Assembly: GCA_903953935.1 (NCBI GenBank)
Contig: CAJBLF010000012.1
Span: 1-51,910, forward strand
DNA length: 51,910 nt
Direction: 5' to 3'
Source of the DNA: an uncultured bacterium
Lineage (GTDB): Bacteria > Patescibacteriota > Gracilibacteria > Absconditabacterales > Absconditicoccaceae
Under the pieces are notes generated by a model. That model was not told the DNA's origin. It made no database searches and saw only the letters and a list, made by a program, of their open reading frames with translations. This document shows positions 41,526 to 43,804 of this stretch, piece by piece (the stretch's first letter is position 1; every line of letters begins with the position of its first letter). Both the position numbers and the translations under genes were made by a program.

Positions 41526-41605
41526 ATGAACAAAGAAATAAATAACAGTCTATATGTACAGATTATTCGTATTTTTTCAAACCATAAATATATACAAAAA
41601 AAGAT

Positions 41606-41636
41606 TTGCATTTCCAAAATTTTTGAATATACTATA
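41606..41636 (+). promoter_or_regulatory. Promoter and shared element before the metallothionein-like gene
   Basis: TTGCAT (41606-41611), 16-base spacer, TATACT (41628-41633). The -10 lies inside TTGAATATACTATA (41623-41636), which occurs again at 42280-42293 before the MauE-like gene. A binding site for the CsoR-type repressor covering the -10 would fit; that is inference. Confidence 0.55.
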
Positions 41637-41691
41637 CCTATACCTATGGTTACGGTTTAAAAAAATCTTTTATATAATAATTATAAAAAAA

Positions 41692-41838
41692 ATGGGAGGG
41701 AATACAAAGAACAACTGCTCTTGTGAAACAAAAAACACCTGCAAATGTAAGGACTGCAAATGCGAATGTACATGTTGCAAAGGCGGAGAATGTACATGCG
41801 AAGGAAAATGCACATGCTGCTGCGGATGCGAAAAATAA
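41692..41838 (+). CDS. Metallothionein-like peptide
   Basis: A 48-residue peptide with 16 cysteines in C-x-C and C-C arrays (N-C-S-C-E, K-C-K-D-C-K-C-E-C-T-C-C, E-C-T-C-E, K-C-T-C-C-C-G-C). This density is that of small metallothioneins binding Cu(I), Zn or Cd as thiolate clusters. A start upstream in the same frame (41554) would add 46 hydrophobic residues and lies over the promoter, so ATG 41692 is preferred. No histidine, no TGA. It is followed 112 bases later by a CsoR repressor and then a MauE-like protein, which supports a metal-response function, most likely copper. Confidence 0.83.
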   Translation: MGGNTKNNCSCETKNTCKCKDCKCECTCCKGGECTCEGKCTCCCGCEK

Positions 41839-41950
41839 CAAAAAAAAAGCTAACAACCAATACCCTGAGAGATACCAATTATTAACTTTTTATGACACAA
41901 GCATACGGAATCATAGGTATAATTCAAGTTTTAGTATATAACACACATCA

Positions 41951-42229
41951 ATGCAATTAGAAAACAGGAAAGAAATCCTTCTTTCTATCAAAAAAGCTAC
42001 TGGAACAATAAAGAAAGTAGAAAAATTAATTGAAGACGACGTATATTGCGCAAATATTGCCCAACAGATTAACGCAGCAATAGGATTACTCAAAAGCGCT
42101 AACAACAAACTTTTGGAAAGTCACATCAAATGTTGTGGAGCAAAAAAACTCTTATCAAAAAACAAAAAAGAGATTGATGAATTTGTCAAAGAACTTATCA
42201 GAGTACGAGACGTTTCCACAAGAAAGTAA
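41951..42229 (+). CDS. csoR: CsoR/RcnR-family metal-sensing repressor
   Basis: A 92-residue all-helical repressor of the DUF156/CsoR family. The Cu(I) ligands of CsoR (Cys36, His61, Cys65) are matched in spacing by Cys33, His58 and Cys62 (V-Y-C-A-N, E-S-H-I-K-C-C). This Cys-His-Cys set, without the RcnR N-terminal His, points to Cu(I). On binding metal the tetramer leaves its operator and genes for buffering or export are expressed. Adjacent metallothionein-like and MauE-like genes are likely targets; the inverted repeat directly after the stop may be an operator. Confidence 0.87.
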   Translation: MQLENRKEILLSIKKATGTIKKVEKLIEDDVYCANIAQQINAAIGLLKSANNKLLESHIKCCGAKKLLSKNKKEIDEFVKELIRVRDVSTRK

Positions 42230-42294
42230 TATAGTATATTCATCACAAATCTAAGAGCGAAAGCGACGAGGATTTTGGCTTGAATATACTATAT
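42229..42294. promoter_or_regulatory. 14-base perfect inverted repeat between csoR and the MauE-like gene
   Basis: ATATAGTATATTCA (42229-42242) and its exact reverse complement (42281-42294), 38 bases apart. The right arm contains most of TTGAATATACTATA, also found at the metallothionein promoter. Could be paired operators or a hairpin in the transcript. Confidence 0.5.
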
Positions 42295-42359
42295 AGTAAA
42301 TCGTTATGATATGCTAAATTCAAAAACAATTTACTATATTTATTTATTCATAAAAAATT

Positions 42360-42929
42360 ATGAAACATCATAAGATGTATATACCCTTTTATATTGCGAT
42401 GTTGATAGTCATACTCTACACTACAGTCCATCAATTTATCATCGGACATCGAATTGGCATGATAGCAATGAATGATTTTATGGGGATCCGATTTATTCTT
42501 TTCGGACTACTTAAATTCTTGGATATCGAAGGATTCGCAAATTCATTTATGCAATACGACATTGTAGCCAAAAAACGAAAACCATATGGATATTTTTTTC
42601 CTATCTTGGAAATCGTTCTATGAATAGCCTATCTTGTAGATACACAGATGCATTATCGATTGACCATAAATATCGTAACGGTTCTTCTAGTAGGAATAAC
42701 TAGTATATGAATATTCTACGCACTCAAAGCCAAAAAAGATATAGATTGTGTCTGCATGGGAACAAAATTTCCCTTACCCATGAGTATCATCAATCTCATA
42801 GAAAATATAGCAATGGGAGCAATGGCAGTATTTATGCTTATTCGAATGGGAAGTGTTACTATGGCGCACACGCCAGTAACGATGGATACTTCAGCACAAC
42901 AAAACAACACAGCAGCAATCTGTCACTAA
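42360..42929 (+). CDS. MauE/DoxX-like redox-associated membrane protein
   Basis: A 189-residue protein with about five membrane helices, a vicinal-type cysteine pair in D-C-V-C-M-G-T-K-F, and a conserved-looking C-terminal helix (P-L-P-M-S-I-I-N-L-I-E-N). This is the layout of the MauE/DoxX-like proteins that appear with heavy-metal genes; C-x-C is probably the redox or metal site. It ends in a Met/Thr/Gln-rich tail with a final Cys-His, again metal-friendly. Third gene of the metallothionein-CsoR set, followed by a strong terminator. Family call from topology and the Cys-containing turn. Confidence 0.65.
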
Positions 42930-42950
42930 ATGGAATATATGCATAAAATA

Positions 42951-42988
42951 AGACGCTGGAACTTCCAAAAGAAGTTCAACGTCGTTTT
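42951..42988 (+). terminator. Terminator of the metal-response cluster
   Basis: Long stem with GAACTTC/GAAGTTC core and outer GACG/CGTC pairing, then G and a run of five T. Confidence 0.85.
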
Positions 42989-43035
42989 TATCCAGCTTTG
43001 CTGAATAGGAATTGTTTTGAAATTCCTATGTGATA

Positions 43036-43067
43036 AACAAAAAATCCGTCTAGACGGATTTTTTTAT
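43036..43067. terminator. Bidirectional terminator
   Basis: Perfect 18-base palindrome AATCCGTCTAGACGGATT flanked by A-run and T-run. Another hairpin, TAGGAATT/AATTCCTA, precedes it (43007-43028). It closes the hypothetical gene on the minus strand. Confidence 0.85.
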
Positions 43068-43084
43068 AAATTATATATGTTTGA

Positions 43085-43804
43085 TTAACAGTCTTCACAT
43101 GCGACAACAGGTGAAGCACATCCTTGAGGATAGTTACCTATTTTTGAACGATCATCATCCCACTTTACTTGAGACACAAAATCCTTTTCATTTACTCTCG
43201 ACAGTACAGCAAAGCCGATAGTCTCTATATTATACCACCTATTCTGACTTGGATTCATCCACCCGGTCTTTTCTAGGCCGAATAATGACACAAAGTTGAA
43301 TATTTTCTCCTGTTCAGTTTCTCCTGGGAAATAACTGATAAATTGTTCTAATTCTTCTTTATCTTGCAATAAAATTTTTTTTTGTTTGTCACATTCTTGT
43401 TCCGCTGCCCTACCCGTTAAGTAAGTCACTCCAGCGATTCACTTCTTTCCATATTGATCTTCACGTTCCCCTCTGAAAATATTTTTACCATTATGTTCAG
43501 CGGTCAATATTGCAAATTTCTTTTTCATCTTGATTATCTCTATCTTTCCATCAGTACTGATACAAATATTTTCTTTCATCTTTTTCTGTTGATCAGGAGT
43601 AATTTTATTTCGCAATTTAGTATATCATTTGTGTTCTGGAAAGGGATTAATTGCCTTTGCCATTTCAAAAGATTCTTCATTTTCCTGAAAATATTCAGAT
43701 ATTTGATTATGTACATTTCAAGCAACATCTTCGATTTCTTTAACTATGTTTTGGGATTCATTGGTAGTTTGACCATCCAATCATTCAACTACTGTTTTTA
43801 TCAT
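43085..43804 (-). CDS. Hypothetical protein after pilC
   Basis: About 239 residues from ATG 43804, or 255 from ATG 43852, which directly follows the pilC stop (TAA then ATG) and would be translationally coupled. No signal peptide is clear. The protein is charged and ends with C-A-S-P-V-V-A-C-E-D-C, three cysteines in the last eleven residues that suggest metal binding or thiol chemistry. Three or four TGA glycines. No family recognised; location suggests cotranscription with the pilus genes. Confidence 0.65.

Follow-up and report, generated by a model that had tools for sequence, protein, structure and literature searches.

Bacteria that sense copper are usually assumed to export it via CopA. 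In Mycobacterium tuberculosis RicR, a Cu(I) repressor of the CsoR family, controls its own gene together with that of the copper metallothionein MymT (PMC10470581), and a distinct regulon, under CsoR and including CtpV, gives the organism an export route as well (PMC4801387). RicR-MymT is the nearest described system to the locus analyzed here, which likewise brings together a CsoR-family regulator and a small, cysteine-rich metallothionein, the latter predicted. The pairing of metallothionein with CsoR is thus a variant on a known theme. There are nevertheless differences from the RicR regulon. In our locus the metallothionein, the regulator and a membrane protein of the MauE family are encoded in one short cluster with a single predicted operator, and the assembled source genome, unlike that of M. 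tuberculosis, has no Cu P-type ATPase; RicR for its part also controls a multicopper oxidase.

Two further groups bear comparison. The csoR-copA units of Gracilibacteria related to the source organism have a homologous CsoR, an equal promoter layout and the same type of operator, but here metallothionein and mauE replace copA. The MauE/DoxX redox-associated proteins (PF07291) share with our membrane protein the Pfam MauE domain and a helical bundle. The subfamily found here, however, has an invariant CxCxG motif and copper-gene neighborhoods, the neighbors at the loci examined being CsoR, multicopper oxidase and DUF305 proteins, with none recognized as mau (methylamine) genes.

Our preferred reading, to which we give a probability of roughly two-thirds, is that CsoR controls the buffering of Cu(I) by the metallothionein, and that MauE provides a membrane step replacing CopA. 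Cells with tiny genomes would then possess a conserved alternative made up of a sensor, a metallothionein and a small membrane protein, neither pump nor chaperone having been found.

A conserved cluster of three genes

The window is the whole stretch of DNA that was analyzed, 51,910 nucleotides in length. It is contig 12 of a MAG of 1.30 Mb in 65 contigs that is 96% complete, and TGA is read as glycine in this genome (genetic code 25). Positions 41606-42989 of the forward strand contain, in order, a promoter, the gene for a 16-cysteine peptide, csoR, a repeat of ~110 bp, a MauE-family gene and an intrinsic terminator. The terminator (42952-42989, forward strand) is a GC hairpin followed by T5 that closes the operon, with an RNA folding energy of −12.5 kcal/mol and z = −3.5.

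The triplet of genes is conserved in two other species, namely G001, a genus mate and the nearest relative of the source genome, and G031, which belongs to another genus. In both of these the gap between csoR and mauE is 23-28 bases, to which the window adds ~110 bp. Comparison with G001 indicates purifying selection on all three genes, with dN/dS about 0.19 for the peptide, 0.025 for CsoR and 0.09 for MauE. The first-pass annotation had described the genes as a metal cluster and suggested a survey of other genomes for the triplet. Evidently the cluster is real, since it is kept in three species and is under purifying selection where this was measured.

The first gene (41692-41838, forward strand) encodes a peptide of 48 amino acids with 16 cysteine and no histidine residues, just as had been read from the sequence initially. 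All 16 cysteines are invariant in an alignment of the three species, and the peptide is rich in CxC; its small size, very high cysteine content and conserved CxC and CC motifs are those of a metallothionein. Searches of Pfam and NCBIfam gave no match at E ≤ 1, the Pfam metallothionein families included. Since it matches no described family, we call the peptide metallothionein-like only. A longer frame of 94 amino acids starting at 41554 was considered and rejected, as it would read across both promoter and operator, and the cysteine-rich frame is conserved only from about the ATG at 41692 onward.

The second gene (41951-42229, forward strand) encodes CsoR, matching PF02583 with 60.9 bits against a cut-off of 22.8 (E = 1.6e-16). 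Residues C33, H58 and C62 are spaced as Cys-x24-His-x3-Cys and align on the C/H/C ligands of the solved CsoR structures 4adz, 4m1p and 2hh7, bearing out the claim that this CsoR has the exact Cu(I) ligand spacing. Proteins of the CsoR family also sense nickel, formaldehyde and persulfide, and we infer the metal of the peptide. The peptide might on this account be a Zn/Cd metallothionein and the regulator might respond to another signal, in which case the cluster would have nothing to do with copper. We consider this very unlikely in view of the exact Cu(I) ligand set in CsoR and of a peptide that is rich in CxC, has no histidine and matches no Pfam metallothionein. The use of an equal type of operator to govern the csoR-copA units of relatives, and the copper genes that neighbor mauE, point the same way (see below).

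The third gene (42360-42929, forward strand) encodes a MauE-family membrane protein of 189 amino acids, matching PF07291 with 60.9 bits against a cut-off of 27 (E = 2e-16). Its frame is open solely when TGA is read as glycine; the two TGA codons specify G88, which is nearly invariant across the MauE family, and G117. The initial description of a MauE/DoxX-like protein with a C-x-C turn is correct, with C130 and C132 forming a C-x-C loop in a D-C-V-C segment. The invariant residues of the subfamily include K52, Y66, D67, E84, C130, C132, G134 and E148. An AlphaFold model (pLDDT 80.9) has five membrane helices. Judging from the loop charges, the CxC loop would face the cytosol and the C-terminal tail, which is disordered in the model, would be on the outside. 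This tail ends in Cys-His in all three species with the triplet. A sequence search of the PDB returned no solved homologue of MauE, and a fold search among the families listed there gave only weak matches to generic helical bundles, the best Z values of 11.1 (EBP) and 10.4 (TMEM35A) lying below the level trusted for bundles.

Promoter, probable operator and dispersed repeat

Upstream of the metallothionein gene the sequence contains a predicted promoter of architecture TTGCAT-N16-TATACT, with the −35 hexamer TTGCAT at 41606-41611 and the −10 hexamer TATACT, which is conserved in G001, at 41628-41633, both on the forward strand. The csoR promoters of relatives in the genus and family, most of them serving csoR-copA, share this layout and comprise TTGCATTT, ~17 bases, TATACT or TATAAT, and then ACCTATACCATAGGT (G007, G022, G033 and others). 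The TTGCATTT block, which the window has as well, lies 5′ of the −10 box in the csoR promoters of G007, G022, G026 and G033, and likewise in G001.

Directly downstream of the −10 box in the window is an ACC-N9-GGT palindrome, the probable CsoR operator (41636-41661, not assigned to a strand), consisting of a core ACCTATACCTATGGT at 41636-41650 and a match to an operator profile at 41638-41661. The profile was built solely from csoR promoters of other genomes, with 200 simulated windows as control. The metallothionein promoter is the top-scoring site in the 52-kb window, with 22.0 bits compared to 17.3 bits for the runner-up. The best site in each simulated window (n = 200) scored 11.0 bits on average and 19.1 bits at most. 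An exact match of the core occurs at this single site genome-wide. The computation thus finds its top site in a pseudo-palindrome overlapping the promoter to be regulated, to which CsoR is predicted to bind.

The operator core is kept in G001, where the site scores lower (12.2 bits) because the right arm has diverged. CsoR-type sites were also found in the intergenic region between the metallothionein gene and csoR of G020, with a strong site before the former, and in both the metallothionein-copA and csoR promoters of G014. The csoR leader of the window (41901-41940, forward strand) contains GCATACGGAATCATAGGTATAATTCAAGTTTTAGTATATA, with a half-site CATAGGTATA that overlaps a TATAAT; it is conserved in G001 and partly in G031. 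Judged by its sequence, the leader is possibly a second CsoR-responsive promoter or a CsoR half-operator.

A different element had been proposed in the first-pass annotation. This was the 14-mer TTGAATATACTATA, placed at the −10 of the first gene and again before mauE, there as one arm of a perfect 14-base inverted repeat. The positions are right (41623-41636 and 42280-42293), and the inverted repeat exists, its arms at 42229-42242 and 42281-42294 being offset by one base from the 14-mer. There is no third occurrence in the 1.3-Mb assembly, and the restriction of the exact 14-mer to these two sites favors a CsoR operator used twice. The first copy, however, is the −10 hexamer TATACT plus a few flanking bases, with a separate conserved CsoR-type palindrome beside it. 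The second has no −35 hexamer at the proper spacing and lies in a dispersed repeat that reads TTGAATGTACTATA in the three copies of another genome, G004, and is missing before mauE in both G001 and G031. We therefore rejected the 14-mer as a CsoR operator, a role that is hardly credible for it. What had been taken for a shared regulatory element is a promoter box together with a lineage-specific repeat. The initial remark that the 14-mer does not resemble known CsoR operators has no bearing, since the probable operator is the adjacent palindrome.

The repeat of ~110 bp (42230-42339, not assigned to a strand) lies between csoR and mauE; the inverted repeat falls inside it, as does the second copy of the 14-mer. 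It is predicted to fold into two hairpins (z = −4.2), and one stem position is changed on both sides, from C-G to T-A, a single event and thus weak evidence. Our own genome holds the repeat once. The genus mate G004 has its three copies, at 85-88%, in unrelated surroundings (L210:730-837, L211:1501-1609 and L212:385-493); these are sharp-ended, beginning TATAGTA and finishing TACTATA. A single substitution in the arm TTGAATGTACTATA gives the 14-mer that is identical to the promoter of the window, and from this comparison we judge the likeness of the repeat to the promoter to be chance and the 14-mer match coincidental. The repeat is a small dispersed mobile element, probably non-autonomous, and resembles MITEs or PATEs, here of Absconditabacteria/Gracilibacteria. 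We place it outside the ancestral operon; by inserting in the window it may have separated mauE from transcription through csoR. An Rfam scan for the inverted repeat gave nothing at the gathering score, the weak matches (E 0.02-0.8) all lying downstream at 42969-43100, and a search of viral contigs for the repeat gave none.

CopA and MauE in related genomes

We found no CopA in our own assembly, where a search with TIGR01511 gave nothing over the cut-off and there was no CPC motif. The sole P-type ATPases of the genome are two in number and both P2-type, with PEEFP and PQGLP in place of CPC. CopA was also not found over the cut-off in G001, and there was no match in G031. A search for HMA-domain proteins gave none in any of these three genomes. 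The cluster thus stands without a Cu P-type ATPase, as initially supposed, and without an HMA-domain protein as well. The finding named at the outset as one that would refute the idea, a CopA at another locus governed by this element, was looked for genome-wide and did not turn up. All of the genomes are MAGs, with completeness of 96% for our own, 95% for G001, 87% for G031 and 73% for G009 (see below), and absence of CopA and HMA proteins from such assemblies is not proof.

As a separate observation, the two P2-type ATPases with their unusual motifs (L003, L004) occur together in a small genome.

Of the 18 genomes in the family that carry csoR, 13 have CopA over the cut-off. MauE is present in four of the five that do not (G000, G001, G009 and G031) and missing from all 13 that do (Fisher p = 0.0016). 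The fifth, G020, has instead a metallothionein gene divergent from csoR. In G014 a metallothionein-like gene encoding 40 amino acids with 13 cysteines (L054:3762-3881) lies directly before copA, possibly representing an intermediate state. A copper exporter could have been missed, either as a copA gene in the few percent of the genome that is unassembled (65 contigs, 96% complete) or as an exporter of another type. This is improbable given that CopA is missing from the searches of G001 and G031 also, that HMA-domain proteins are missing from all three genomes with the triplet, and that csoR, which adjoins copA in most relatives, here adjoins the metallothionein gene and mauE.

A search with a model of this MauE found relatives in 22 of 353 genomes of the class. 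Half of these (11 of 22) have csoR in the same orientation as the MauE gene and no more than 0.9 kb from it. The binomial probability under random placement is about 4e-18, a figure that overstates the association because the genomes are not independent. No adjacent csoR was found in the other 11, some of which have the gene on short contigs, and three MauE genomes additionally carry CopA. Therefore MauE is not a strict substitute for CopA.

Fusions and neighbors of MauE in the class are also related to metals. The protein is fused to an HMA domain in G350 (and more weakly in G009) and to the heavy-metal-binding domain HMBD in G305 and G224. Multicopper oxidases are neighbors in G111 and G115, and DUF305 in G009. 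In G080 and G081 a protein encoded beside mauE and csoR (L110:5459-6130 and L111:3904-4584) has a metallothionein-like start CTCxxCKCDPC, a membrane helix and DUF305. Outside the class, MauE homologues of Bacteroidetes have an N-terminal GMTCxxC, an HMA-type segment, and glutaredoxin-MauE proteins occur in many Alphaproteobacteria (L136-L206, Alphaproteobacteria and others). Three of the neighbors tested there are MerR-type regulators, and several of the glutaredoxin-MauE genes lie beside divergent regulators of this type. The MauE gene adjoins DUF305, multicopper oxidase and CopB genes on a plasmid of Alteromonas macleodii; those for a heavy-metal P-type ATPase, CueR and DUF305 on a plasmid of Sulfitobacter mediterraneus; and those for a multicopper oxidase and a heavy-metal-associated domain protein on a Bernardetia plasmid. 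By fusion and gene neighborhood, the CxCxG MauE subfamily is linked to copper genes in several phyla. A search of literature titles and abstracts gave nothing relevant on MauE and metals, metallothionein and Patescibacteria, or Gracilibacteria and copper, and we found no paper linking MauE, DoxX and copper.

Proposed function of the cluster

In the scheme that we favor, apo-CsoR would occupy ACCTATACCTATGGT in the operator (41636-41661), which overlaps the start site of the promoter for the metallothionein gene, and so block transcription. Cu(I), which we infer to be the ligand, would fill the C33/H58/C62 site and release CsoR, whereupon metallothionein, CsoR and MauE would be made, the later genes being expressed by read-through in the ancestral arrangement. 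The 16-cysteine peptide would bind cytosolic Cu(I), in place of the missing CopZ/HMA chaperone. The cytosolic C-x-C loop of MauE would then take up Cu(I) and pass it across or onto the membrane as a stand-in for CopA, with delivery as by the HMA or HMBD domain fused to the N-terminus in relatives. The idea of copper buffering without an exporter, put forward at the outset, is supported as far as a CsoR-controlled copper cluster without a Cu-ATPase is concerned. It is incomplete, in that the MauE subfamily is repeatedly tied to CsoR, HMA and HMBD domains and copper-resistance genes, and MauE may therefore supply the membrane step.

The evidence on transport as against redox activity for MauE is close. 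The main alternative retains the same regulon, but makes MauE a thiol-redox enzyme (DoxX/VKOR/DsbB-like), with copper buffered and not exported; electrons passing through the C-x-C would keep the thiols of metallothionein or CsoR reduced, or repair thiols damaged by copper. The glutaredoxin-MauE fusions fit a redox role equally well, and a 16-thiol peptide requires a reductant. There is in addition a DsbB gene near the copy on the Sulfitobacter plasmid, a public annotation as 'redox-associated membrane protein', and a distant fold likeness to VKOR and TMEM35A. Yet HMA and HMBD are metal-binding and not redox modules, MauE takes the place of CopA in the family, and the triplet has no thioredoxin-like partner. 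On balance we regard the redox enzyme as possible, though less likely than the membrane copper step.

Returning to MauE as the membrane step in copper handling, we tentatively suggest a wider generalization, in which we have distinctly less confidence than in the reading of the cluster itself. The CxCxG MauE proteins might constitute a class of membrane proteins for copper handling that has so far gone unrecognized. They could be translocators that move Cu(I) without ATP after receiving it from metallothionein, HMA, HMBD or glutaredoxin modules. In reduced genomes such proteins would take over from P1B-type ATPases, and they would be widespread in the copper islands of Bacteroidetes and Proteobacteria. 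The locus also draws attention, as a candidate copper-resistance factor, to a membrane protein of wide distribution whose annotation refers to methylamine metabolism or to glutaredoxin.

The plasmid-borne glutaredoxin-MauE genes that lie beside copper-resistance genes are annotated just as 'glutaredoxin'.
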